Below, in pieces: positions 4,013 through 44,638 of a DNA stretch of 64,000 nucleotides. This DNA is from Arthrobacter sp. UNC362MFTsu5.1 (GTDB taxonomy: Bacteria; Actinomycetota; Actinomycetes; Actinomycetales; Micrococcaceae). The stretch's first letter is position 1. Every line of letters starts with the position of its first letter. The notes under the pieces were generated by a model. It made no database searches. It had not been told where the DNA came from and saw nothing but the letters and a program-made list of their open reading frames with translations. Position numbers and translations under genes: made by a program. The stretch spans positions 372,001 to 436,000 of the forward strand of contig NZ_JMLE01000001.1 in NCBI RefSeq assembly GCF_000685965.1, read 5' to 3'.

Positions 4013-5143
4013 GTGCCATTGCCCAGACTCCCCGCCGCCCCCCACGGGCGGATCTCCGCACGGATCCCACCCCTGTTGCCGGGACTACTCACTGCCGTTT
4101 TCGCCGTCGGGGTGGCCTTTACCGTACACGCAATGGTGCCCGCCCTGCCCGCCATGACCGTCGCCGTCGTGCTCGGGCTGCTTTCTGCCAACCTCCCCGG
4201 CACCGGAACCTGGACGGCGGGGCGGGCGCGTCCGGGACTCGACTTCGCCGGCAAGCACCTGATGAGGGCCGGGATTGTGCTCCTCGGACTGAAAGTCAGC
4301 GTCCTGGACGTCCTGGGCCTCGGCTGGCAGTCGCTGCTGCTCATCACGGGGGTGGTCCTGGTGAGCTTCGCCGGAACCTACGGGATTTCCCGGATGTTCC
4401 GCCTGACCCGCGATGCCTCCCTGCTCATCGCCACCGGTTTCTCCATCTGCGGAGCCTCTGCCATTGGCGCGATGGCTGCGGTCCGCAGGATCCGCCACGT
4501 GGACACCGTCCTGCCGGTTGCGCTGGTCACGCTGTGCGGCACCCTGGCCATCGGTGTGCTGCCGCTGCTCCTGCATCCGCTGCAGCTCACCCCTGAAGTG
4601 TTCGGTGCGTGGACCGGGGCGTCGGTGCACGACGTCGGCCAGGTGGTGGCCACCGCACAGACCGCAGGCACCGGTGCCCTGGCGATCGCCGTCGTCGTGA
4701 AGCTGACGCGGGTGATCCTGCTGGCCCCCATGGTGGCCGCCGCAGGGATCCACCAGCGGTCGGCCATCAACCGCGAAACCCGGAACGGCGCCGGACCGAA
4801 CGGGACCGGACCGGATGGATTGGCAGGTGCGGAGCCGGCCGGCCCGGCCTCCGAAACCGACGGCGCCGAGCTGCGGATGCCGCCCGTCGTCCCGCTGTTC
4901 GTCATTGGATTTGTGGCCATGGTGGGTTTGCGGTCCACCGGCTGGCTCTCCCCCGGCTGGCTGGAGGCCGCCGCAGCCGTGCAGGATCTGCTGCTCGGCA
5001 CGGCGCTCTTCGGCCTGGGTTCGGCGGTCCGGGTGCAAACCCTGCTCCACACCGGCGCCAGGGCCCTGCTGGCAGCCCTCGCGGCGTGGCTCCTGATCGC
5101 CGCCCTGGGACTGGGGGCCGCCATGCTGATCGTTCAGCCTTGA
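4013..5143 (+). CDS. YeiH-family putative sulfate exporter (UPF0324)
   Basis: This 376-residue integral membrane protein has about ten hydrophobic segments. Family blocks are GLDFAGKHLMRAGIVLLGLKV, GFSICGASAIGAM and GASVHDVGQVVATA. Members are annotated as putative sulfate or small-anion exporters; the substrate is not proven. A hydrophilic loop rich in Gly, Asn and Pro (about residues 245-285) splits the last third. The start is GTG at 4013, after AAGGTAGGT. It is divergent from the ATP-grasp operon, with 107 bases between the starts, which must hold both promoters. Confidence 0.85.
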   Translation: MPLPRLPAAPHGRISARIPPLLPGLLTAVFAVGVAFTVHAMVPALPAMTVAVVLGLLSANLPGTGTWTAGRARPGLDFAGKHLMRAGIVLLGLKVSVLDVLGLGWQSLLLITGVVLVSFAGTYGISRMFRLTRDASLLIATGFSICGASAIGAMAAVRRIRHVDTVLPVALVTLCGTLAIGVLPLLLHPLQLTPEVFGAWTGASVHDVGQVVATAQTAGTGALAIAVVVKLTRVILLAPMVAAAGIHQRSAINRETRNGAGPNGTGPDGLAGAEPAGPASETDGAELRMPPVVPLFVIGFVAMVGLRSTGWLSPGWLEAAAAVQDLLLGTALFGLGSAVRVQTLLHTGARALLAALAAWLLIAALGLGAAMLIVQP

Positions 5144-5231
5144 CGGACCAGGTCCCGCCCGGACAACTGCACCGAAGCCACTGCACCGACGCGGCACCGG
5201 TGATCCGCCTGCGCCATGATTCAATAGCTTG

Positions 5232-7859
5232 GTGTCGAATGAGAACCTGCAACGCGATGAAGCGGCAAATCGCTCAGCCCTGATCACCACCCATAGCTAC
5301 GACGTTTCACTCGACGTCCGCACGGCGCAGGATCCGGAGGTTACCGGCTACACCAGCCGCAGCGTAATCAACTTCTCCGCCCGGGAACCCGGCGGCTCCA
5401 CATTCCTGGACTTCATCAGCAGCGACGTGCACAGCGTGTTCCTGAACGGAAAGGGGCTGTCCGTCGCCGACGTCGTGGACGGATCCCGTATCCGGCTTGA
5501 CAACCTGCAGGCCGAAAACCAGGTCACCGTCACCGGGACGGCGCTGTACAGCACGTCCGGGGAGGGAATGCACCGCTTCTTCGACCCCGCCGACGGCCAG
5601 TGCTACCTCTACACACAGTACGAGCCGGCTGATGCCCGGCGCGTGTTCGCCAACTTTGAACAGCCCGACCTCAAGGCGGAATTCACGTTCCATGTGATGG
5701 CTCCCTCCGACTGGCAGGTCGCTTCCAACGGCACAGAGGCCAACCGCACCCAGCTGACCAGCGATCCCGCAACGAGCCGCTGGGACTTCGCACCGACCCG
5801 GCGGATGTCCACCTACATCACCACCGTGCTGGCTGGGCCGTACTTCAAGGCCGAGGACCACTGGAGCGGAACCGTTGAGGACGGCACAGCGCTGGAAATC
5901 CCGCTGGCCCTCTACTGCCGCAAGTCCATGGCGGGATCCTTCGACACCGCGCACCTGTTCCAGCTCACCAAGCAGGGACTCGGATTCTTCAACAACCTCT
6001 TCGACTACCCCTACCCCTGGGGCAAGTACGACCAGGCGTTCGTGCCCGAATACAACCTCGGCGCCATGGAAAACCCCGGGCTGGTCACCTTCACCGAAAA
6101 CTACGTTTTTACGTCCCGCGCCGCTGATTCGCAGTACCAGGCACGCGCCAATACCCTGATGCACGAAATGGCGCACATGTGGTTCGGTGACCTGGTGACC
6201 ATGCAGTGGTGGAACGATCTCTGGCTCAAAGAGTCCTTCGCCGACTACATGGGCACCCTGGGCGTGGACCGCGCCACGGACTGGGACACGGCCTGGGTGA
6301 ACTTCGCCAATAACCGCAAGGCGTGGGCCTATGTCCAGGACCAGCTGCCCACCACCCACCCGATCGTCGCCGACATTCCCGACCTTGAAGCGGCCAAGCA
6401 GAACTTCGACGGCATCACCTACGCCAAGGGCGCATCCGTGCTGAAGCAGTTGGTGGCCTACGTCGGCTTCGAGGCGTTCATCGCCGGCTCGCGCCGGTAT
6501 TTCCGGGACCACGAGTACGGCAACACCACGCTCGCGGACCTGCTCGCCGCCCTCGGCGAGGCGTCCGGCCGGGACCTGGCGGCATGGGCCCGCCAGTGGC
6601 TGCAGACTTCAGGGATCTCCACCGTCACGGCAGAAATTGATGACCACGACGGCGTGCTGGGCAGGGTTGCCCTCGTCCAGGAGGCAGTGGACCCGGTCAC
6701 CGGACGGCAGGAACTGCGGCCGCACCGGCTTCGGGTCGGGCTATACGATTTCGACGCCGACGGCTTGCTGGTCCGCACCGACAGCGTGGAGACCGACCTG
6801 ACCGGCCAGAGCACGGTGGTTCCCGAACTGGAGGGCAAGCCGGTGCCCGCCCTCCTCCTGGTCAACGACGACGACCTCAGCTACGTGAAGGTGCGGCTTG
6901 ATCCCCGCTCGGAAACCACCGCGCGTGCGTCCCTGGGAGCCCTGCAGGACCCGATGGCCCGGGCGCTCTGCTGGACGGCGCTCTGGGATGCCGCCCGCGA
7001 CGGTGTGGCACCGGCGGACAGCTACGTTGCGGCAGTGGAGAAATTCAGTCCCGCCGAGAACGGCATCGGCGTCCTGCTGAACGTGCTGGGCAACGCGTCG
7101 ACTGCCATCGACCGCTATGCACCGGTTTCGGAACGGGATACGGTGCGCCGCCGCTTCCTGGACGCGGCTGCCCGGGAACTTGCCGCAGCCCGGCCGGGTT
7201 CGGACCACCAGCTCGCCTGGGCAAGGACCCTCGCCGCCGCCAGTCGGCAGTCGGCAGGCCGCCTGGACCTGCTGAGGGGAATCCTGGACGGCACAACGGT
7301 CATCGAAGGCCTTGCCGTGGACCCCGAGCTCCGCTGGAGCCTGTGGCATGCCCTGGCGGCCAACGGTCAGGCAACGGAGGCCGAACTCGACGCCGAACTT
7401 TCCCGTGACACCACGGCATCCGGCCGTGCGGGCCATGCCACGGCACTCGCCGCCCGCCCGGTGGCGGCGGTCAAAGCCGCAGCCTGGGATGCCGCCGTCG
7501 CAGGCAGCGCCCTCTCCAACCAGCTGCTCAGCGCCACGATTGCCGGATTCAACACGGCCCCGGACGGCCTGCTGGACCCGTTTGTGGAACCGTACTTCGA
7601 GTGCCTCGAGAACGTCTGGGCGGAGCGCAGCATCGAGATCGCCAGCCGGATTGTCCGCGGGCTCTATCCGGCAGGCCAGGATTTGGACGGGGGCGATCCG
7701 GCCACCCACCCCGTGATCGTCCGGACGGACAACTGGCTGGCCGGCCACCCGGACGCTCCACGGGCGCTTCGCCGGATCGTCATCGAGCAGCGGAGCCACC
7801 TGCACCGTTCCCTCACAGCACAGGCAGCAGCCGCGAAAGCACCATCGATTGCTCCGTAA
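5232..7859 (+). CDS. pepN: aminopeptidase N (M1 zinc metallopeptidase)
   Basis: This cytosolic M1-family aminopeptidase of 875 residues removes N-terminal amino acids from peptides. The substrate-anchoring GAMEN motif is at about residue 277. The zinc site HEMAH is at 311-315, with the third ligand Glu334 in LKESFADY, giving the expected HExxH-x18-E spacing. An ERAP1-like helical C-terminal domain follows. GTG at 5232 (MSNENLQRDE) is preferred over TTG at 5229 because it matches the usual N-terminus of the family in this genus. No clear ribosome binding site is seen. The last codons run into a long hairpin shared with the converging neighbour. Confidence 0.95.
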   Translation: MSNENLQRDEAANRSALITTHSYDVSLDVRTAQDPEVTGYTSRSVINFSAREPGGSTFLDFISSDVHSVFLNGKGLSVADVVDGSRIRLDNLQAENQVTVTGTALYSTSGEGMHRFFDPADGQCYLYTQYEPADARRVFANFEQPDLKAEFTFHVMAPSDWQVASNGTEANRTQLTSDPATSRWDFAPTRRMSTYITTVLAGPYFKAEDHWSGTVEDGTALEIPLALYCRKSMAGSFDTAHLFQLTKQGLGFFNNLFDYPYPWGKYDQAFVPEYNLGAMENPGLVTFTENYVFTSRAADSQYQARANTLMHEMAHMWFGDLVTMQWWNDLWLKESFADYMGTLGVDRATDWDTAWVNFANNRKAWAYVQDQLPTTHPIVADIPDLEAAKQNFDGITYAKGASVLKQLVAYVGFEAFIAGSRRYFRDHEYGNTTLADLLAALGEASGRDLAAWARQWLQTSGISTVTAEIDDHDGVLGRVALVQEAVDPVTGRQELRPHRLRVGLYDFDADGLLVRTDSVETDLTGQSTVVPELEGKPVPALLLVNDDDLSYVKVRLDPRSETTARASLGALQDPMARALCWTALWDAARDGVAPADSYVAAVEKFSPAENGIGVLLNVLGNASTAIDRYAPVSERDTVRRRFLDAAARELAAARPGSDHQLAWARTLAAASRQSAGRLDLLRGILDGTTVIEGLAVDPELRWSLWHALAANGQATEAELDAELSRDTTASGRAGHATALAARPVAAVKAAAWDAAVAGSALSNQLLSATIAGFNTAPDGLLDPFVEPYFECLENVWAERSIEIASRIVRGLYPAGQDLDGGDPATHPVIVRTDNWLAGHPDAPRALRRIVIEQRSHLHRSLTAQAAAAKAPSIAP

Positions 7860-9368: not shown

Positions 9369-9509
9369 AATTGGACCTTCGTTCGCACAACTGGATTTTG
9401 CCAGCTGCCAGGTATGAATGGGATGAAGGTGCGGAACAACATCAATAACATCAGGTGCCCGGACCAACACTCAATCCTAGCCTAAAGAGGCTCCCGGTAC
9501 GAACCGGGG

Positions 9510-10319
9510 TCAGCCCTTCGGGCGGAGTTCCCAGAACGCGACGGCGGAAGCCGCCGCGACGTTGAGCGAATCGACTCCCGCCCGCATGGGAATCTTGACG
9601 GCGAGGTCCACGGCGGCGAGGGTCTCCGGGCTCATGCCCGCACCTTCGGTGCCCAGCACCAGGGCGAGTTTGTCCGGGTTGCGGGCGGCCAGTTCATCGA
9701 GGTCCACGGCATCTCCCGTGAGTTCCATGGCTGCCACCGTGAAACCCTGCTCCCGGAGGACATTGAGATCGTCCGGCCACGACTCCAGGCGGGCCCACGG
9801 AACCTGGAACACGGTACCCATGCTCACGCGGACACTGCGCCGGTACAGGGGGTCCCCGCACCGTGGCGAGACCAGCACGGCGTCCACGCCGAGGGCGGCT
9901 GCCGAGCGGAAGATGGCACCCACGTTCGTGTGGTCCACGATGTCTTCGAGGACGGCCACCCGGTGTGCACCGGCCAGGAGTTCGGGCAGCGGCACGGGTG
10001 CCGGGCGGTGCATGGCCGCCATGGCGCCGCGATGCAGGTGGAAACCGGTGATGTCTTCCAGCAGCGCGGCGCTGCCGACAAACACCGGGACGTCCGGGAA
10101 CCGGTCAAAGACGTCGGTCAGGTCCTCCAGCCACTTCTCGGCAAGGAAAAAGGAACGCGGCCGGTGGCCGGCAGCGAGGGCGCGCCGGAGCACGCGCGAG
10201 GATTCCGCGATGTACATCCCCTCGGCGGGTTCCCGGACCTTGCGCAAGTGCACGTCCGTGAGCCGGGTGTAGTCGGACACCCGGGGATCATCAGCGGATT
10301 CGAGGTAGTGGAAAGTCAC
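9510..10319 (-). CDS. TrmH/SpoU-family RNA 2'-O-methyltransferase
   Basis: This 269-residue SAM-dependent methyltransferase has the knotted SPOUT fold. The three family motifs are present: DIVDHTNVGAIFRSAAALG (motif 1), LVLGTEGAGMS (motif 2) and VDSLNVAAASAVAFWE (motif 3). An N-terminal substrate-binding domain covers about 1-100. The target rRNA or tRNA position cannot be told. The start is GTG at 10319. It is probably the last gene of an operon with the TauE-type transporter (48 bases upstream) and the ABC ATPase. Confidence 0.9.
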   Translation of the reverse strand: MTFHYLESADDPRVSDYTRLTDVHLRKVREPAEGMYIAESSRVLRRALAAGHRPRSFFLAEKWLEDLTDVFDRFPDVPVFVGSAALLEDITGFHLHRGAMAAMHRPAPVPLPELLAGAHRVAVLEDIVDHTNVGAIFRSAAALGVDAVLVSPRCGDPLYRRSVRVSMGTVFQVPWARLESWPDDLNVLREQGFTVAAMELTGDAVDLDELAARNPDKLALVLGTEGAGMSPETLAAVDLAVKIPMRAGVDSLNVAAASAVAFWELRPKG

Positions 10320-10366
10320 TGGAAGTCATTTCATCGGGACGGGTGATGCACCGGGGCAAGTGCCGG

Positions 10367-11152
10367 TCATTTGAACAGGTTCGCGATCATGAACCCCAGG
10401 GCCACGAGGCCCAGTGCGAAGATGACGCCGCGCAGGACCGGCGGGGAAAGCCGCCGGCCCACCTTGGAACCGATGATGCCGCCGATGAGGGAACTCACCG
10501 CGATAATGCCCACAACCGGCCAGTTGATGCGCCCGAATGCGAACAGCAGATAAGACGCCGCCGCCACGATGTTCACCCCGAGGACCAGGATGTTCTTCAT
10601 GGCGTTGGCGTTCTGGATGGTCCCCGTCATGAACACGCCCAGGATGCCCACCAGGAGGATGCCCTGCGCGGCGACGAAGTAGCCGCCGTAGACACCGGCC
10701 AGGTACACCAGGACGATCAGGAGCACGCCGTGGCGTTTGTCGTTGATCGCGTGCTCGGGGTTCGCCTCCCGGTTCCGCACCCACTGCTGGAGCCGGGGCT
10801 GGAAGACCACCATCAGCAGGGCGAGCACAATCAGGGCAGGTGCGGCGTAGTGGAACACCTTCTCCGGCAGGTGCAGCAGCAGCCAGGCGCCGCTGATGCC
10901 GCCCAGCAGGGATGCCGGCAACAGCCGAAGCAACTGCCTGCCGCGCCCCGCGAGCTCTTTCCGGTACCCCCAGGCGCCCGCGGCATTCCCCGCCACGAGC
11001 CCCATGGCATTGCTGATGGATGCTGTCACCGGGGCGATGCCCAGGGCAATCAGCACGGGGAACGTGACCAGGGTGCCCGAACCCACAACACTGTTGATGG
11101 TTCCGGCCCACAGCCCCGCGAAGAAGATGAAGACGCCGTTGAGTAACTCCAC
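10367..11152 (-). CDS. TauE/SafE-family sulfite exporter-like membrane protein
   Basis: This 261-residue protein with about eight membrane segments opens with FFAGLWAGTINSVVGSGTLVTFP, the typical N-terminal repeat motif of the TauE/SafE (DUF81) family. A matching second repeat is VYGGYFVAAQGILLVG. Members move sulfite, sulfoacetate or other organic anions; the substrate here is unknown. The start is GTG at 11152, 19 bases after the ABC ATPase gene, so the two are likely co-transcribed. Confidence 0.88.
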   Translation of the reverse strand: MELLNGVFIFFAGLWAGTINSVVGSGTLVTFPVLIALGIAPVTASISNAMGLVAGNAAGAWGYRKELAGRGRQLLRLLPASLLGGISGAWLLLHLPEKVFHYAAPALIVLALLMVVFQPRLQQWVRNREANPEHAINDKRHGVLLIVLVYLAGVYGGYFVAAQGILLVGILGVFMTGTIQNANAMKNILVLGVNIVAAASYLLFAFGRINWPVVGIIAVSSLIGGIIGSKVGRRLSPPVLRGVIFALGLVALGFMIANLFK

Positions 11153-22327: not shown

Positions 22328-22654
22328 TGCAGCTAAGGCCTTTCACAACAGGGAACGCCACGGCACAGCGGATGGAGTCTGGGCGGGGCCGGGGCAGTGT
22401 GGCCGAGAGAACGGCCTCTACCAGTCTACCGGCACCGCACGTCCCGGAAGACCTGCAGCGCATAGCCCGCCCGGCGCCCGCCGCACCGCTGCGTTGGCCA
22501 CCCCGTCCAGAGCCGGCGCCTTCCATTAGTGGATCCCCTACAAAAAAGGGCTGCGGCCGGAGACGTATCGTCGGAATTGAGGGGAAAAGGCTGCCCCCCG
22601 GGCAGTTGCCCCTCCCCGTTGCATCGCACTTGCACTGACCGACAGGACTTCCCC
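22328..22654. other. intergenic region between ABC-F gene and bioY
   Basis: 327 bases separate the two divergent starts. No gene is convincing. The right part must contain the bioY promoter and a structured leader (22579-22614). I found no clear BioQ-type TGAAC/GTTAC palindrome and no BirA-like dyad. Confidence 0.6.
22579..22614 (+). promoter_or_regulatory. structured leader upstream of bioY
   Basis: An outer stem GAGGGG/CCCCTC (22579-22584 and 22609-22614) encloses an inner stem CTGCC/GGCAG (22591-22595 and 22601-22605) with a C-rich loop. It ends 40 bases before the bioY ATG. It could be an attenuator or simply a GC-rich fold. Confidence 0.35.
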
Positions 22655-23356
22655 ATGACCCACACTGACAAGGCCGTCACCAACCAGGCTGCTTCCGGCA
22701 CTAATCCAGGCCATGAACCCGACGCCACATCAGCCCGGAACCGCTGGAACGCCACCGACCTGGGCCTCATCGCCGTTTTTGCCGCCCTCGTGGCCGGCTC
22801 CGCGCTCATTGCGGCCATCCCCGTGGGCGGCCTCGGCGTGCCCATCACCTTGCAGACCCTCGCGGTGATGCTGACGGGCATGGCGCTTGGCCCGGGACGG
22901 GCGTTCGCCGCCGTCGGCCTGTACACGCTGCTTGGGCTCGCCGGACTGCCGATCTTCAGCGGCGGCCGGAGCGGCCTGGGGATCCTCGCCGGCCCCTCTG
23001 CCGGCTACATCATCGCCTTCCCGCTGGCCGCCCTGGCCGTCGGCTGGCTGACCACCATCGTCCTCCGCCGCACCGTGAAGTACCGGGGCCTGTTCCTCTT
23101 CGCCGCGGCCATGGCCAGCAGCATCGTGCTGGTCCACAGCCTGGGCGTGCTGGGCATGATGGTCAACGGCAAGCTGGACCTTTCCAAAGCCTTCCTCCTT
23201 GACCTTGCGTACTACCCCGGCGACATCATCAAGAATGTCCTCGCCGTCACCATTGCACTCGCCCTGCACAAAGCGTTCCCCGATCTCCTGATCCGCCGTG
23301 CCGGTGTCCGGAACAACGGGGCGGTTTCGGCACGGAAGGGCAAGGCCGGCAACTAG
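22655..23356 (+). CDS. bioY: biotin transporter substrate-binding component BioY
   Basis: This 233-residue S component of the biotin ECF transporter has six membrane helices. Family motifs are visible: IPVGGLGVPITLQTLAVMLTG (the PV..Q.L block), GLYTLLGLAGLPIFSGG and AGPSAGYIIAFP. The start is ATG at 22655 (MTHTDK), after AGGA 8 bases upstream. Two bases separate it from bioM, so bioY-bioM-bioN form one operon and should assemble as a full transporter with its own energising module. Confidence 0.95.
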   Translation: MTHTDKAVTNQAASGTNPGHEPDATSARNRWNATDLGLIAVFAALVAGSALIAAIPVGGLGVPITLQTLAVMLTGMALGPGRAFAAVGLYTLLGLAGLPIFSGGRSGLGILAGPSAGYIIAFPLAALAVGWLTTIVLRRTVKYRGLFLFAAAMASSIVLVHSLGVLGMMVNGKLDLSKAFLLDLAYYPGDIIKNVLAVTIALALHKAFPDLLIRRAGVRNNGAVSARKGKAGN

Positions 23357-23357
23357 C

Positions 23358-24110
23358 ATGGGCAGCATTCTTCTGGACGGAGTCAACGTTCGGGTGGCGG
23401 TGGACGGACATCCTGAGCCGAAAACGCTACTGGACGGAATCTCGCTGAACCTCACCGAACAGCGGATCGGCGTGATCGGCGCGAACGGGTCAGGGAAGTC
23501 CACCCTCCTGCGGCTCCTGAACGGACTGGTCGCGCCGAGCCATGGAACGGTGACGGTTGACGGCGACGATACCGTCAGATCGGTCCGCGCCGTGCGCCGG
23601 AAAGTCGGTTTTGTGTTCACGGACCCGCTCTCCCAGCTGGTGATGCCCACCGGCCGGGAGGACGTGGAACTCTCCCTGCGGCGTTCCGTCCGGAACCCGA
23701 AGGAACGCCGGGACGCCGCCACGGCGATCCTCAACCGCTTCGGGCTGCTGGCCCTGGCCGACCAGAGCATCTACGAGCTTTCGGGCGGCGAACGGCAGCT
23801 GATGGCCCTCGCTGCCGTGTTGGCAGTGGAGCCGTCGGTCCTGGTGCTGGACGAGCCGTCCACCCTCCTGGACCTCCGGAACCGCGAACTCCTCCGCCGG
23901 ACCATCGCGGGCCTCAGCCAGCAGATCGTGATGTCCACCCACGACCTCGAGCTGGCCAGGGACATGGACCGTGTCCTGGTGGTGGAATCAGGACAGGTGG
24001 TGTTCGACGGCGGTGCTGACGCCGCCGTCGAACACTACCGGGCACTGTCCGCCGCCGGCCTGCCGCCGGTGGGCGCCGCGTCCTGGCCACACACTACGGA
24101 GTCAGCGTGA
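23358..24110 (+). CDS. bioM: biotin ECF transporter ATP-binding protein BioM
   Basis: This 250-residue EcfA-type ATPase powers BioY. Walker A is GANGSGKST at 41-49, the Q-loop region is VFTDPLSQLVMPTG, the signature is LSGGERQLM, Walker B is VLVLDEPSTLLD and the H-loop is MSTHDLEL. The start is ATG at 23358. It overlaps bioN by 4 bases. Confidence 0.93.
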   Translation: MGSILLDGVNVRVAVDGHPEPKTLLDGISLNLTEQRIGVIGANGSGKSTLLRLLNGLVAPSHGTVTVDGDDTVRSVRAVRRKVGFVFTDPLSQLVMPTGREDVELSLRRSVRNPKERRDAATAILNRFGLLALADQSIYELSGGERQLMALAAVLAVEPSVLVLDEPSTLLDLRNRELLRRTIAGLSQQIVMSTHDLELARDMDRVLVVESGQVVFDGGADAAVEHYRALSAAGLPPVGAASWPHTTESA

Positions 24111-24796
24111 GCGGCCACGGATTCCTGCTGGTCAATTACGTTCCGGGTACGTCGCTGGTCCACCGGGTGCCCCTCTGGCTGAAGTTCCTCCTGGTGGTGG
24201 GTTGCGGCATGGCGTCGTTCCTGGTGGTGGACTGGGTGGTTGCCGCGGGGGCGCTGGCCCTGATGTGCCTGGCGTTCCTCGCCAGCGGTGCCGGCCCGGC
24301 ACGCCTGTTCAGGGCAGTCAGGCCCATCCTGCCGGTGCTGGCGGCCATCGGGTTGTTCCAGTGGTGGCAACTGGGTGGTCCGGTTGCGGCGCGGATCGTC
24401 CTGAACGTCCTGGTCTGCGTGGTGGCCGCGTCGATACTTACCGCCACCACGCCGATGCAGCGCCTGCTCGACGGCGTCGTCTCCTTGGCGGTCCCGTTCC
24501 GGCGTTTTGGTGCGGACCCCGAACGGTTCGCGCTGACGATTGCGATTATGCTCCGCAGCATTCCGTTCATCGCCGGAGCCTACTCGGACGTTAGGGATTC
24601 AGCCCGTGCCCGCGGACTTGAACGCAACCCCCGGGCACTGGTGTTGCCGGTCTTCATCACCACGGTGGCCTATGCGCGCCAGACGGGCGACGCCCTTGCG
24701 GCCCGGGGCCTCGGCGAACCCGGCCCGGAGGACGACAACGAAGAAGACGAGGGCACGCAGGATAACGGCACGCCGGGCGACGCCGGGCGACGCTAG
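24107..24796 (+). CDS. bioN: biotin ECF transporter transmembrane protein BioN
   Basis: This 229-residue EcfT-type coupling protein has about four or five membrane helices. The coupling-helix motif ARARGLERN (A-R-G type) contacts the ATPase. The C-terminal tail is acidic and contains a short repeat (GDAG). The start is GTG at 24107 within the end of bioM. The gene converges on the thiolase gene. Confidence 0.9.
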   Translation: MSGHGFLLVNYVPGTSLVHRVPLWLKFLLVVGCGMASFLVVDWVVAAGALALMCLAFLASGAGPARLFRAVRPILPVLAAIGLFQWWQLGGPVAARIVLNVLVCVVAASILTATTPMQRLLDGVVSLAVPFRRFGADPERFALTIAIMLRSIPFIAGAYSDVRDSARARGLERNPRALVLPVFITTVAYARQTGDALAARGLGEPGPEDDNEEDEGTQDNGTPGDAGRR

Positions 24797-24817
24797 CTGC
24801 CGGCCCGTCGGCCGGCG

Positions 24818-24832
24818 GCCTGTCTTACAGGC
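24818..24832. terminator. short hairpin between bioN and thiolase gene
   Basis: GCCTGT/ACAGGC closes a 3-base loop inside a wider GC-rich dyad, in the 42 bases between two convergent genes. It is a weak terminator candidate. Confidence 0.3.
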
Positions 24833-24838
24833 GGCGTG

Positions 24839-26062
24839 TTACTCGCGGCGGGTCTCGTCCAGCCGTTCATACCGGAACAGGGCGGCGGTGCCCATTCCCC
24901 CGGCAATGCTGATCATGGCCAGAGCCAGGGAGCCGGCCCGGCTGCCGGCGGGCGATGGTTCCCGGGCCTGGGCCAGGAGCCTGGTGACCAGAACGGCGCC
25001 CGACGCTCCGTACGCATGGCCCAGGGCCAGCGCACCACCGTCGAGGTTGGCCCGTTCCGGGTCGATACCGAGGGCAGCCAGGCACGCGAGGGTCTGAGAC
25101 GCGAAAGCCTCATTGAAATCCACCAGGTCAATATCCGCGGCCGTAACACCCTGCTGCGCCAGCAGGCGGCCGGCCGCCGCGGCTGCACCCATGCCCAGAA
25201 CGCGGGGGTCCACGCCCGCGGTATCGGTGCCCAGCACCAGGAGTCCGTCCGCTGCCCCGAGTTCCCGTGCGCGCTCCACGGAAGTAATAACGACGGCGGC
25301 GGCGGCATCCGCGTCGAAACAGGAGTTACCGGCGGTGACGGTGCCGCCCTCGGCGAAAACGGGTGGGAACCGGGACATCAGGGCGGCCGTCAGGCGTGCC
25401 CGCGGGCCGTCGTCGGACGCCACGGTTCCGGACACGGCCTGCACCGGAACCGTCTCGCCGGTGAAGCTGCCGGCCGCTGCTGCGGCCAGCGCGCGCCGGT
25501 GGCTTTCCAGGGAAAACCGGTCCTGGCGGTCGCGGCTGATGCCGAAAGCGGCAGCCACATTGTCCGCTGCGGCGCCCATGTCCGGATCACCGTAACTAAG
25601 GGGCACGAACTGCGCCCGGCGGAAGAACTCGGGGCTGCCGTCGGCGGCCCTGTTCGCGCGGAGCGGAGCGGTGCTGATGCTTTCGACCCCGCCCGCAAGG
25701 TAGGCGCCGCCGCCTCCGGCTGCCACCAGCCGCGCTGCAAGGACAATGGCGTCGAGCCCGGAACCGCACTGCCGGTCCACGGTGACGCCCGGTACGCTGA
25801 CGGGCAGGCCCGCCTCCAGGGAAGCCAGGCGCGCAACGTTGCCGCCGCCTCCCACCGCGTTGCCGATCACGACGTCCGTCACTGCGCCTGCCGGCAGGCC
25901 TGTCCGGTCGAGGAGGCCACGAAGCACGGGCGCCAGCAGCTCATGGGCCCTGAGATCCTTGAACGCTCCGTTGACCCTGCGGATGGGAGTCCGCAGGGCG
26001 GCGATGACTACCGGCTGGCGGTCGGGCGGCAACTGTCCGGGCGGCAAGCCGTCGGCGGGCAT
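24839..26062 (-). CDS. thiolase-family protein with Ser replacing the second catalytic Cys
   Basis: This thiolase superfamily member has 407 residues from ATG 26062. The acyl-accepting Cys is in VDRQCGSGLDAI (about residue 99), NEAFA is present, and the catalytic His is in GGALALGHAYGASG. In the C-terminal motif, where thiolases have C-x-G-G-G-x-G, this protein reads SIAGGMG: the second catalytic Cys is Ser, encoded by AGC (plus-strand 24908-24910). It may therefore catalyse something other than ordinary thiolysis. It follows the acyl-CoA ligase gene by 16 bases. A TTG at 26116 would add 18 residues and overlap that gene. The pair faces bioYMN. Confidence 0.85.
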   Translation of the reverse strand: MPADGLPPGQLPPDRQPVVIAALRTPIRRVNGAFKDLRAHELLAPVLRGLLDRTGLPAGAVTDVVIGNAVGGGGNVARLASLEAGLPVSVPGVTVDRQCGSGLDAIVLAARLVAAGGGGAYLAGGVESISTAPLRANRAADGSPEFFRRAQFVPLSYGDPDMGAAADNVAAAFGISRDRQDRFSLESHRRALAAAAAGSFTGETVPVQAVSGTVASDDGPRARLTAALMSRFPPVFAEGGTVTAGNSCFDADAAAAVVITSVERARELGAADGLLVLGTDTAGVDPRVLGMGAAAAAGRLLAQQGVTAADIDLVDFNEAFASQTLACLAALGIDPERANLDGGALALGHAYGASGAVLVTRLLAQAREPSPAGSRAGSLALAMISIAGGMGTAALFRYERLDETRRE

Positions 26063-26078
26063 CTGCGCAGCAGCAGGC

Positions 26079-27473
26079 TCAGCCAAGGCGGCGTACCCTT
26101 GTGTCTCCGCGTTCAATCCAGTCCAGCAGCAGTTGCCTGCTGACTTTCCCCCGGTCCGTCACAGGCAGTTCAGTCAGTGCGAAATACTGCAACGGCCGTT
26201 TGTCCCGGGGCAGGACATCGTCAAGGCCGGCCTTCAGCTGGGTTGCCGTGATGCCCCCATGGGAGGGGACCACGCCTGCCACGACGCGTTGGCCGCGGAC
26301 ATCGTCCTGCATGCCCGAGGCGACGGCGGCAGCCACTCCGGGGACGGACGCGAGGGCCAGTTCCACCTCATGCGGGTAGACGTTCTTTCCCGCCGTGATG
26401 ATCATGTCCGCCCGGCGGCCCAGGATGTGAAGCTCGCCGTCCTGCAGGTACCCCTGGTCCCCCACCGTGTACCAGCCGTCGAAACAGCGCAGCGCCTGCC
26501 CGTCGTCGCCCCAGAGGTAGCCGTTGCTGACCATTCCGCTGTGCACGCAGATGTTGCCGTCCGTGCCGTCGGGAAGCGGGGCGCCGCCGTCGTCCATGAT
26601 CCGGACTTCGACGCCGGGGAAGGGCTTCCCGATGCCCGTTCCTCCCGCGTCCAGCGGGGCGCCGGAACGCAGCGCAACCCCGGAAACGAAGCTCAGTTCG
26701 GAGGCGCCGTAGTACTCGAAGATGGTGGCCCTGGGTGCCCAGCGCCGCGCGGCCTCCAGGGTCCGGGCATCCAGCTTGGACCCCGCGCAGATGATGGACG
26801 TGATGCCGGAAGCATCGACGCAGCCGGCCAGCCCGCGTTCACTGAGCAGCCGGAGCATGGTGGGCACCAGGACCAGCCGGGTGATGCCGTCATGGGTGAT
26901 GGCGGCGTGCACATCGCCGACGTCGAAGGATTCCAGCGTGTGGAATTCCGAGCCCGCGTAGAGGCACTCGGACAGGGCATACAGGTTGAGGCTGGCCGCC
27001 AGCGGACCCGGGGCGAGCGTCTTGTCCTGTGGAGTGAGTCCGAAGAATTCGATGGAGGCGTCGAACGAGAGCTGCCACGATCGCCTTGACCGGGTGAACG
27101 CCTTGGGAACCGACGTGGTGCCGGACGTCAGGCCAATGAGGAACACGGAATCCGGGCTGCCGTCCCGGAGCTCTGCCGACGAAGGAGTGCCGGGTTCTGC
27201 GTGCAGCCGGGCAACGATCTCGGCCTGCAGCTGCGCCGGCCAGGTGGGGTCGAGGACGGCACATTGCCGGTCGCCGGCCACCGCGGCGGCGAAGGACACG
27301 GCGAAGTCGACCGAGTTCGCCTCGGCAAGCACGGTCACCTTGCCGGTGTCCGCTGCCCGCGACGCAGCGGCGTCCCGGAGGGCGGCCCAGCTGAGGTGCC
27401 GGCCGGCCACGACGACGGCGGTGTCGTCGGGGCGGTCGTCGGCCCAGCGTTGGAGTCTGTTGAGGAAAGGCAT
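26079..27473 (-). CDS. AMP-dependent acyl-CoA ligase, YhfT-like
   Basis: This adenylate-forming acyl-CoA ligase is rather short (464 residues). P-loop LTSGTTSVPKAFTR, YYGASELSF, YTVGDQGYL, GRRADMIITAGKNVYP and the C-terminal DRGKVSR with the catalytic lysine are all present. The start is ATG at 27473 (MPFLNRL). A -10-like TAAAGT lies 7 bases before it and there is no ribosome binding site, so the mRNA is probably leaderless. With the thiolase it resembles the Bacillus subtilis yhfT-yhfS pair that lies beside a bioY gene; a role in activating a biotin precursor or related acid is inferred from this context. Confidence 0.85.
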   Translation of the reverse strand: MPFLNRLQRWADDRPDDTAVVVAGRHLSWAALRDAAASRAADTGKVTVLAEANSVDFAVSFAAAVAGDRQCAVLDPTWPAQLQAEIVARLHAEPGTPSSAELRDGSPDSVFLIGLTSGTTSVPKAFTRSRRSWQLSFDASIEFFGLTPQDKTLAPGPLAASLNLYALSECLYAGSEFHTLESFDVGDVHAAITHDGITRLVLVPTMLRLLSERGLAGCVDASGITSIICAGSKLDARTLEAARRWAPRATIFEYYGASELSFVSGVALRSGAPLDAGGTGIGKPFPGVEVRIMDDGGAPLPDGTDGNICVHSGMVSNGYLWGDDGQALRCFDGWYTVGDQGYLQDGELHILGRRADMIITAGKNVYPHEVELALASVPGVAAAVASGMQDDVRGQRVVAGVVPSHGGITATQLKAGLDDVLPRDKRPLQYFALTELPVTDRGKVSRQLLLDWIERGDTRVRRLG

Positions 27474-27480
27474 CGGATCA

Positions 27481-27486
27481 ACTTTA
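27481..27486 (-). promoter_or_regulatory. -10 box of a probable leaderless promoter (ligase-thiolase operon)
   Basis: TAAAGT on the minus strand fits TANNNT and lies 7 bases before ATG 27473. Confidence 0.5.
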
Positions 27487-43075: not shown

Positions 43076-44638
43076 ATGCCAGAAACTGAAATCGGCAGCA
43101 GGAAATCTGCTGGGCGGGGCCGCAACCCGCTGAGGGACCCGCGGGACCGCCGGCTTAACCGCATTGCCGGGCCCTCCTCGCTGGTCCTCTTCGGAGTGAC
43201 CGGCGACCTCGCCCGCAAGAAGCTCATGCCTGCCGTGTATGACCTGGCGAACCGGGGGCTGTTGCCGCCGAGTTTTGCCTTGGTGGGCTTCGCCCGGCGG
43301 CAGTGGGAGAACGAGGACTTCGCCGCCGAGGTCAAGGCGGCCGTGATGGCCTACGCCAGGACCCCGTTTGACGAAGCGGTCTGGAACCAGCTGTCGGAGG
43401 GCATCCGGTTTGTCCAGGGCGAGTTCGACGACGATGACGCCTTTGAGCGGCTCGGCGACACGATCGATGAACTGGACGAGCAGCGCGGAACGCGGGGGAA
43501 CCACGCGTTCTACCTCTCGATCCCGCCGAAGGCGTTCGAGCAGGTTTGCCGGCAGCTGTCCAAGCATGGCCTGGCGCAGGCCGAGGGTGATAAGTGGCGG
43601 CGGGTGGTGATCGAAAAGCCGTTCGGGCACGACCTCGAGTCGGCCCGGCAGCTGAACGACATCGTGGAGTCCGTGTTCCCGCCGGATGCGGTGTTCCGGA
43701 TCGATCACTACCTGGGCAAGGAAACGGTCCAGAACATCCTGGCGCTGCGGTTCGCGAACCAGCTGTTCGAACCGTTGTGGAACGCGAACTACGTGGACCA
43801 TGTTCAGATCACCATGGCCGAGGACATCGGCACCGGCGGCCGGGCCGGGTATTACGACGGTGTGGGCGCGGCCCGCGACGTCATCCAGAACCACCTGCTC
43901 CAGCTCCTGGCGCTCACGGCGATGGAGGAACCCATTTCCTTCAACGCCGATGACCTGCGGGCCGAGAAGGAAAAGGTCCTGGCCGCGGTCAAGCTCCCGG
44001 ACGACCTGTCCACGCACTCGGCGCGCGGGCAGTTCGCCGGCGGCTGGCAGGGCGGGGAGCAGGTGCTCGGGTACCTGGAGGAGGAAGGCATTCCCGCCGA
44101 CTCCACGACGGAAACCTATGCCGCGGTCCGGGTGGACATCCACACCCGGCGCTGGGCCGGGGTGCCGTTCTACCTGCGTGCCGGCAAACGCCTGGGACGC
44201 AGGGTGACGGAAATCGCCGTCGTATTCAAGCGCGCCCCCAACCTGCTCTTCCGCGACCACGGGGAGGATGACTTCGGCCAGAATGCCGTGGTGATCCGGG
44301 TCCAACCCGATGAGGGCGCAACGATCCGTTTCGGGTCCAAGGTCCCGGGCACGCAGATGGAAGTCCGCGACGTGACGATGGACTTCGGCTACGGCCACTC
44401 GTTCACCGAATCGTCCCCGGAAGCCTATGAGCGGCTGATCCTGGACGTGCTTCTCGGTGAGCCGCCGCTGTTCCCGCGGCACCAGGAAGTGGAACTGTCC
44501 TGGAAGATCCTGGATCCCTTTGAAGAGTACTGGGCCAGCCTGGGTGAACAGCCCGAGCCCTACGCCCCCGGAAGCTGGGGGCCCGCCTCGGCCGATGAGC
44601 TGCTGGCCCGTGACGGACGAACCTGGAGAAGGCCATGA
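43076..44638 (+). CDS. zwf: glucose-6-phosphate 1-dehydrogenase
   Basis: This 520-residue enzyme performs the first step of the oxidative pentose phosphate pathway and makes NADPH. The nucleotide-binding loop is VTGDLARKKLMPAV. The active-site motif RIDHYLGKE is near 206-214, and EKPFGHDLESA is conserved. The start is ATG at 43076. It overlaps opcA by 4 bases, as expected for a protein whose activity depends on OpcA in actinobacteria. Confidence 0.96.
   Translation: MPETEIGSRKSAGRGRNPLRDPRDRRLNRIAGPSSLVLFGVTGDLARKKLMPAVYDLANRGLLPPSFALVGFARRQWENEDFAAEVKAAVMAYARTPFDEAVWNQLSEGIRFVQGEFDDDDAFERLGDTIDELDEQRGTRGNHAFYLSIPPKAFEQVCRQLSKHGLAQAEGDKWRRVVIEKPFGHDLESARQLNDIVESVFPPDAVFRIDHYLGKETVQNILALRFANQLFEPLWNANYVDHVQITMAEDIGTGGRAGYYDGVGAARDVIQNHLLQLLALTAMEEPISFNADDLRAEKEKVLAAVKLPDDLSTHSARGQFAGGWQGGEQVLGYLEEEGIPADSTTETYAAVRVDIHTRRWAGVPFYLRAGKRLGRRVTEIAVVFKRAPNLLFRDHGEDDFGQNAVVIRVQPDEGATIRFGSKVPGTQMEVRDVTMDFGYGHSFTESSPEAYERLILDVLLGEPPLFPRHQEVELSWKILDPFEEYWASLGEQPEPYAPGSWGPASADELLARDGRTWRRP

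Follow-up and report, generated by a model that had tools for sequence, protein, structure and literature searches.

Why should the genes of a biotin importer stand face to face with those of an acyl-CoA ligase and a thiolase? The question is raised by positions 22655..27473 of a 64,000-nucleotide stretch of DNA from Arthrobacter sp. UNC362MFTsu5.1 (the whole stretch is called the window here), in which bioY-bioM-bioN (22655-24796, + strand) is convergent with a ligase-thiolase operon (24839-27473, - strand). Comparison with other genomes indicates that the linkage of the pair to BioY is not due to chance and recurs far beyond chance expectation. As a tentative explanation, we favor one in which a biotin-type acid, once imported, is activated by the ligase and its acyl group is transferred by the thiolase-fold partner. 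The features of the locus are as follows.

22655..23356, + strand: bioY, S component of the predicted biotin energy-coupling factor (ECF) transporter (PF02632, E 1.3e-35; start ATG 22655)
23358..24110, + strand: bioM, ATPase of the predicted ECF transporter (PF00005; start ATG 23358)
24107..24796, + strand: bioN, T component of the predicted ECF transporter (PF02361 CbiQ, E 4.8e-14; start GTG 24107)
24797..24838, no strand assigned: convergent gap between bioN and the thiolase gene, with two hairpins on either strand, a candidate two-way terminator (fold of 24786-24848)
24839..26062 (open reading frame to 26116), - strand: YhfS-type thiolase-fold protein (Pfam Thiolase_N/_C, alignment, relatives, structure model)
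26079..27473, - strand: YhfT-type acyl-CoA ligase, its P-loop followed by the cassette signature R128-x3-S132-W133 (PF00501, PF13193, signature)
27481..27486, - strand: TAAAGT, candidate -10 element 7 nucleotides before the ligase ATG (read from the upstream sequence)

All five reading frames are intact at these positions and their products match the Pfam families BioY, ABC_tran, CbiQ, Thiolase_N/_C and AMP-binding/_C, which confirms the arrangement given in the preliminary description, bioYMN facing a ligase/thiolase operon. By these matches the S, A and T components of the predicted transporter BioYMN are all present in the window. The bioN gene overlaps bioM by 4 nucleotides, and the top NCBIfam matches of bioM are ECF ATPase models, with scores below their cut-offs. 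Window BioY (P0001) contains a P-G-D-x-x-K motif; all 36 tested BioY proteins from cassettes have the form P-[GS]-D-x-x-K, as do 64 of 143 other BioY proteins, and we take its Asp and Lys to be biotin-binding residues.

To measure linkage we set the positions of the ligase against those of BioY in 100 Micrococcaceae genomes and used 100 fetched BioY neighborhoods, out of 108 BioY loci; those left out were the window's own locus, a fragment of G278 at the end of a contig, and the loci of six linked genomes, which were read by coordinates. The family ligase scan undercounts, as it scored at most 16 candidates per genome and detects close relatives only, and G229, G257 and 20 genomes of both operon types were recovered from the fetched regions instead. 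The ligase-thiolase pair, or one of its members, was found in 46 of the 100 genomes, and 43 of these 46, spread over 20 of the 32 genera sampled, have it within ~6 kb of BioY. The linked genomes show three gene orders: 23 are convergent as in the window, 16 are arranged bioY-ligase-thiolase-bioM-bioN and four bioM-bioN-bioY-ligase-thiolase, the last two being apparent single operons (G234, counted as linked, has a thiolase piece adjoining bioN at a contig end). Five genomes of the window's genus were sampled, and in four of them the pair is linked to bioY; the fifth, G002, is an exception considered below. Six genomes (G222, G232, G255, G269, G279 and G299) have two BioY loci, one a bioY-ligase-thiolase-bioMN cassette and one plain, that belong to separate BioY lineages.

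Beyond the family, the bioY-ligase-thiolase-bioMN order also occurs in L251, from another actinobacterial class, and in L269, from the same class and another order, both in a phylum sample in which 80 regions (78 genomes) were fetched out of 133 genomes with BioY. A search of this sample with the window ligase at 1e-40 matched 5 of 198 genomes, one of which (G031, L010) lacks the ligase signature; the search was insensitive, missing G060 (L269). The pair is uncommon across the phylum at large. In a scan of named genomes with a ligase alignment (A1), we considered the best 80 loci of at least 593 matching stretches. The motif P-loop, PK, x3, R, x3, S-W was present in 10 of these 80. Nine of the 10 are flanked by sequence on either side, and in every one of these BioY and the thiolase are adjacent, whereas BioY was found beside the ligase in none of the 70 loci without the R-x3-S-W motif. 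The nine are from Fictibacillus, two Cytobacillus, Candidatus Avacidaminococcus (where the order is bioY-thiolase-ligase), Afipia, a Xanthobacteraceae metagenome-assembled genome, Shimia, Arthrobacter SW1 and Paenarthrobacter, so that the cassette spans three phyla, Actinomycetota, Bacillota and Alphaproteobacteria. The co-occurrence that the preliminary description had proposed as a check is thus recurrent, and its fear that linkage to bioY might be an accident of a single genus is not borne out.

Are these proteins kin to YhfT and YhfS? The best equivalog model for the window ligase is NF005797 (PRK07638; 220 bits, below the cut-off of 518) and that for the thiolase is NF005212 (PRK06690; 331 bits, below the cut-off of 498), while Bacillota cassette members score above both cut-offs. 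Among 14 control genomes, matches to the two models at E 1e-120 were found in one, that of Bacillus subtilis, and we take the proteins concerned to be YhfT and YhfS. In the ligase tree, 43 cassette ligases lie on one side of a branch with 32 others on the opposite side (SH-aLRT 99), and in the thiolase tree 39 cassette thiolases are separated from 12 others (SH-aLRT 97). Both trees are quick ones with some long branches, and they include Bacillota members, the B. subtilis proteins themselves not being among the rows. The ligase tree omitted 12 loci (near-copies, L277 and L170) and used as controls the 32 best-scoring signature-negative ligases; the thiolase tree omitted 10 rows. Together with the model matches, these clades support the relationship to YhfT/YhfS that had been suggested from the window. 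One close relative (P0171) carries the depositor's name YhfS.

The ligase tree contains two Micrococcaceae lineages, the convergent and bioMN-bioY types lying near Shimia and the bioY-ligase-thiolase-bioMN type near L251 and L269. In the BioY tree (main split 85), one side holds the BioY proteins of both operon types together with those from the other phyla, and on the opposite side convergent-type BioY lies among plain BioYMN. The pair therefore seems, from these trees, to have kept or regained the company of BioY more than once.

What the two enzymes might do is constrained by their active sites. The thiolase open reading frame extends to TTG 26116, but ATG 26062 is the likelier start because the nearest database relative is 407 residues long (P0126) and the first 18 residues of the structure model have a per-residue confidence (pLDDT) <50. 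The window protein has the thiolase fold and retains the nucleophilic Cys and the His (Cys117 and His367 in P0004 numbering), whereas Ser403 occupies the usual position of the second catalytic Cys, which is absent. The same is true of the cassette thiolases generally: equivalents of the acyl-accepting Cys89 and of His348 are kept in 50 of 50, and the equivalent of Cys378 is found in none of the 49 that are readable there, being Ser, Ala or Gly instead (the count excludes L230, a thiolase outside any cassette that has Cys at this site). Ser is present at the position in 120 of 120 close relatives, and six of the seven other thiolase-family proteins of the window genome retain the second Cys. 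We take Cys378 to be the general base of thiolases, presumably needed for C-C cleavage or condensation; because this base is missing, neither thiolysis nor condensation would be expected. The Cys and His that remain may be enough for an acyl-enzyme to be formed and discharged, and the name thiolase is probably misleading for the YhfS-type cassette protein.

The ligase, the first gene of the two-gene leftward operon, with the thiolase second, carries the general annotation acyl-CoA synthetase. At the sequence level it is a predicted ANL acyl-CoA ligase, with AMP-binding domains, P-loop and C-terminal catalytic Lys. This Lys (K443) is invariant in a 47-row alignment of cassette ligases, and so are R128, S132 and W133; of the 17 AMP-binding proteins of the window genome, the window ligase is the only one with the R-x3-S-W motif. 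Several cassette ligases are very short: in L153, L164, L177, L133 and L269 (4863-5984) the matched part covers ~371-374 residues and much of the N-terminal domain is absent, the open reading frames of L153, L164 and L177 having only 76 residues ahead of the P-loop. L269 (G060) has two R-x3-S-W ligases (929-2551 and 4863-5984), one within the bioY-ligase-thiolase-bioMN operon and the other after bioN. In genus g167 (L182, L187, L188, L148) bioN and the ligase gene are separated by a gene for a class-III aminotransferase, as judged by Pfam in L182, the one locus tested.

If the pair supplied a precursor for biotin synthesis, should it not keep company with bioB? Among the 100 family genomes, 47 have bioB. 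It is present in 24 of the 46 genomes with the pair (22 are without it) and in 23 of the 54 genomes without the pair (31 are without it; Fisher p 0.42). Because the pair is found equally with and without bioB, a general role in precursor supply is unlikely. In the search for bioA, in which class-III aminotransferase paralogues blur the result, 34 of the 100 genomes pass the cut-off and the window genome does not. A bioB gene is present in the window genome (L353, G000:C22:34000-53000, about 9431-10678), and by eye no other biotin gene was recognized among the nearby open reading frames; the strain may need biotin or dethiobiotin.

We also asked whether the cassettes are under biotin control. 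Perfect BioQ-type sites, TGAAC-N3-GTTCA, number 54 in the 179 fetched loci (2.09 Mb), 39 of them in the stretches before the aligned bioY starts, which total 52 kb. All 16 bioY-ligase-thiolase-bioMN regions of the family and L269 have a perfect site, which lies in the upstream stretch in 14 of the 16 and just outside it in L104 and L108; all four bioMN-bioY-ligase-thiolase regions have tandem one-mismatch sites, and 23 of 64 other family regions, plain bioY included, have a perfect site. In L273-L275, GTTAAC/GTAAAC-type inverted repeats that we take to resemble BirA sites precede bioY, and in L251 a divergent gene with an HTH_11 (helix-turn-helix) domain, presumably birA as read from its motif, lies beside bioY. 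None of the operator patterns tried was found in L283 or the alphaproteobacterial loci; the BioR-type pattern TTATnnATAA was absent from the 410 bp around the bioM start and TTATMKATAA from the whole of L276, L278 and L280. Near the window genes neither a BirA nor a BioQ site was found. From these predicted sites, the cassette as a kind is tied to biotin control, a tie that holds for other cassettes and is without a site in the window. A different palindrome, GTAGG-N3-CCTAC, precedes bioY in L128, L160 and L170, all of the convergent type (three of its five copies in the 100 family regions), and the window has the half-site CCTACAA (22537-22543) before bioY; this possible operator of another regulator is a lead only.

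The most reasonable explanation of these observations, put forward tentatively above, can be set out in steps. The predicted importer BioYMN would take up a carboxylic acid of the biotin type; this acid would be converted by the YhfT-type ligase to its CoA thioester; and the YhfS-type protein would take the acyl group on its Cys and pass it to an acceptor, the carbon chain being neither cleaved nor built. The ligase would then act on the compound imported by BioY, either biotin or one of its breakdown products, and the YhfS-type partner would be an acyltransferase. We favor this because the pair sits amid importer genes and is equally frequent without bioB. It is embedded in the importer operon in the 16 of 100 bioY-ligase-thiolase-bioMN cases, in L251 and L269, and in the four bioMN-bioY-ligase-thiolase cases. 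Salvage of a biotin-related compound taken up by BioYMN, one of the ideas first offered for this locus, is close to this reading. A more specific version, possible if rather unlikely, is that the R-x3-S-W ligase makes biotinyl-CoA, or the CoA ester of a biotin metabolite, and that the base-less thiolase is a biotinyl-transferase storing, trapping or re-routing the vitamin.

Several observations weigh against activation and transfer of what BioY imports. A BioQ site is present in only two of the 16 fetched convergent regions, and allowing up to one mismatch gave no BioQ box near the window genes; two one-mismatch sites lie farther away, at 43794 and 45886. The pair also seems to carry a promoter of its own. 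In the family, no pair was found in 54 of 100 genomes, yet BioY is present in 99 of them all. Linkage is broken in G002, of the window genus, where the pair lies 35 kb from bioY, in G242, where the two are on different contigs, and in G289, where the pair is beside bioMN and bioY is elsewhere. Nor are the two members inseparable: L182, L187 and L188 carry the ligase with no thiolase detected nearby, the ligase of G258 (L170) is interrupted by stops, and the signature ligase of L243 has no BioY and no thiolase in its vicinity. Finally, much of the evidence also agrees with a role in handling fatty acids when biotin is scarce.

That last alternative is the best of the rivals, and we consider it unlikely. 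On this view, once acetyl-CoA carboxylase fails for lack of biotin, fatty acids scavenged by the cell are activated by the ligase, and its thiolase-fold partner hands the acyl groups on, for example from CoA to acyl carrier protein, so that less malonyl-CoA is needed; BioY would be co-regulated and no more. Biotin-regulator sites before many cassettes, independence of bioB and the general annotation of the ligase would all suit such a route. It accounts less well for two of the three gene orders, in which the pair is embedded among importer parts, suggesting a common substrate, and for the cassette ligase, which stands apart as a clade marked by a signature that the other 16 AMP-binding proteins encoded in the window genome do not share. 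Repair of a breakdown product, in which bisnorbiotin taken up by BioY is activated by the ligase and then lengthened or shortened by two carbons on the thiolase to yield biotin, appears improbable: the BioY cassette, the biotin-type regulation and the occurrence without bioB agree with it, but the base that carbanion chemistry presumably needs is missing in 49 of 49, and no dedicated reductase or hydratase was noticed in cassette maps, which covered five gene types only.

The leading idea of the preliminary description, that pimelate or a longer acid is activated and shortened to feed biotin synthesis, fares worse still and is very improbable. It draws on the homology labels and on the bioB of the window genome; 22 of the 46 genomes with the pair lack bioB, the second Cys is missing, and by eye the mapped loci show no clustering with bio synthesis genes. 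A general role in shortening the chain of pimelate or another biotin precursor was accordingly rejected, on the independence of bioB and the absence of the second Cys in 49 of 49. A chance or inherited neighborhood with no shared function, to which the convergent orientation, separate promoter, missing BioQ box in the window and 35 kb gap in G002 might point, is scarcely credible and, for the cassette as a kind, largely refuted by 43 of 46 linked genomes over 20 genera in three gene orders, by two ligase lineages beside two BioY lineages and by the same cassette in other phyla.

In the finer layout of the locus, 42 nucleotides separate the bioN stop from the thiolase stop, and the hairpins in the fold of 24786-24848 (z -1.6 and -2.3 on the two strands) are only moderately better than shuffles; the gap may act as a two-way terminator. 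TAnnnT-like hexamers at a similar distance, ~7 nucleotides before the start, were counted by eye in 12 of 15 upstream ligase regions, and because of these the ligase-thiolase pair is probably transcribed from a promoter of its own into a leaderless mRNA. The cassette is flanked on the right by a zinc metallopeptidase gene and on the left by one whose product has two ABC domains. The host genome is 5.1 Mb, and the closest named proteins are mostly from Arthrobacter. In G289 (L354, G289:C5:22000-41000), bioM-bioN is convergent with ligase-thiolase while bioY is on another contig, the pair having stayed with the energy module.

How does this compare with known systems? In the accessible portions of the literature, yhfT, yhfS and bioY share the BirA biotin regulon in B. 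subtilis and Staphylococcus aureus, and the roles given to YhfT and YhfS are putative and homology-based only (PMC6391492, PMC7235819, PMC11089781). That sharing is what was already known; the present analysis adds the gene orders, the three-phylum spread, the ligase signature, the missing Cys and the bioB cross-table, none of which was found in the accessible literature. The window has the same three functions, in the same ligase and thiolase clades as the Bacillota proteins that pass NF005797 and NF005212, but it differs in being convergent, in having its own bioMN, in scoring below those cut-offs and in showing no BirA or BioQ site. Corynebacterium glutamicum BioYMN, for which a predicted BioQ site TGAAC-N3-GTTCA is described (PMC3398298), is, like the predicted importer of the window, a three-gene biotin ECF importer of an actinobacterium, whereas the window lacks a BioQ box near the genes; in that paper thiolase appears nowhere in the text and 'ligase' has three uses, in other contexts. 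A precedent for a thiolase-fold acyltransferase, as we propose for the window protein, is PhlC of the Pseudomonas protegens PpATase, which transfers acyl groups through an acyl-cysteine and has conserved Cys88 and His347 (PMC6392133). PhlC differs in belonging to a three-protein complex acting on phenolics (PMC6392133), and it was absent among the 50 entries listed in a structure comparison of the window thiolase. Classical biosynthetic and degradative thiolases, such as that of Zoogloea ramigera, have the second catalytic Cys that is replaced in every readable cassette member. Within the accessible literature on yhfT/yhfS, BioY with a ligase and thiolase, bisnorbiotin, biotinyl-CoA and biotin conjugates, no assigned function was found; a 2002 biotin regulon paper may say more.

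The ligase-thiolase pair is thus a recurrent companion of BioY in three phyla, and the R-x3-S-W signature separates its ligase from other acyl-CoA ligases. The question posed by the locus is narrowed from beta-oxidation or pimelate supply to the activation and transfer of something that BioY may import. If the pair were indeed a biotinyl-transferase module, biotin metabolism would include an unrecognized enzymatic step, placed after uptake and before protein biotinylation.

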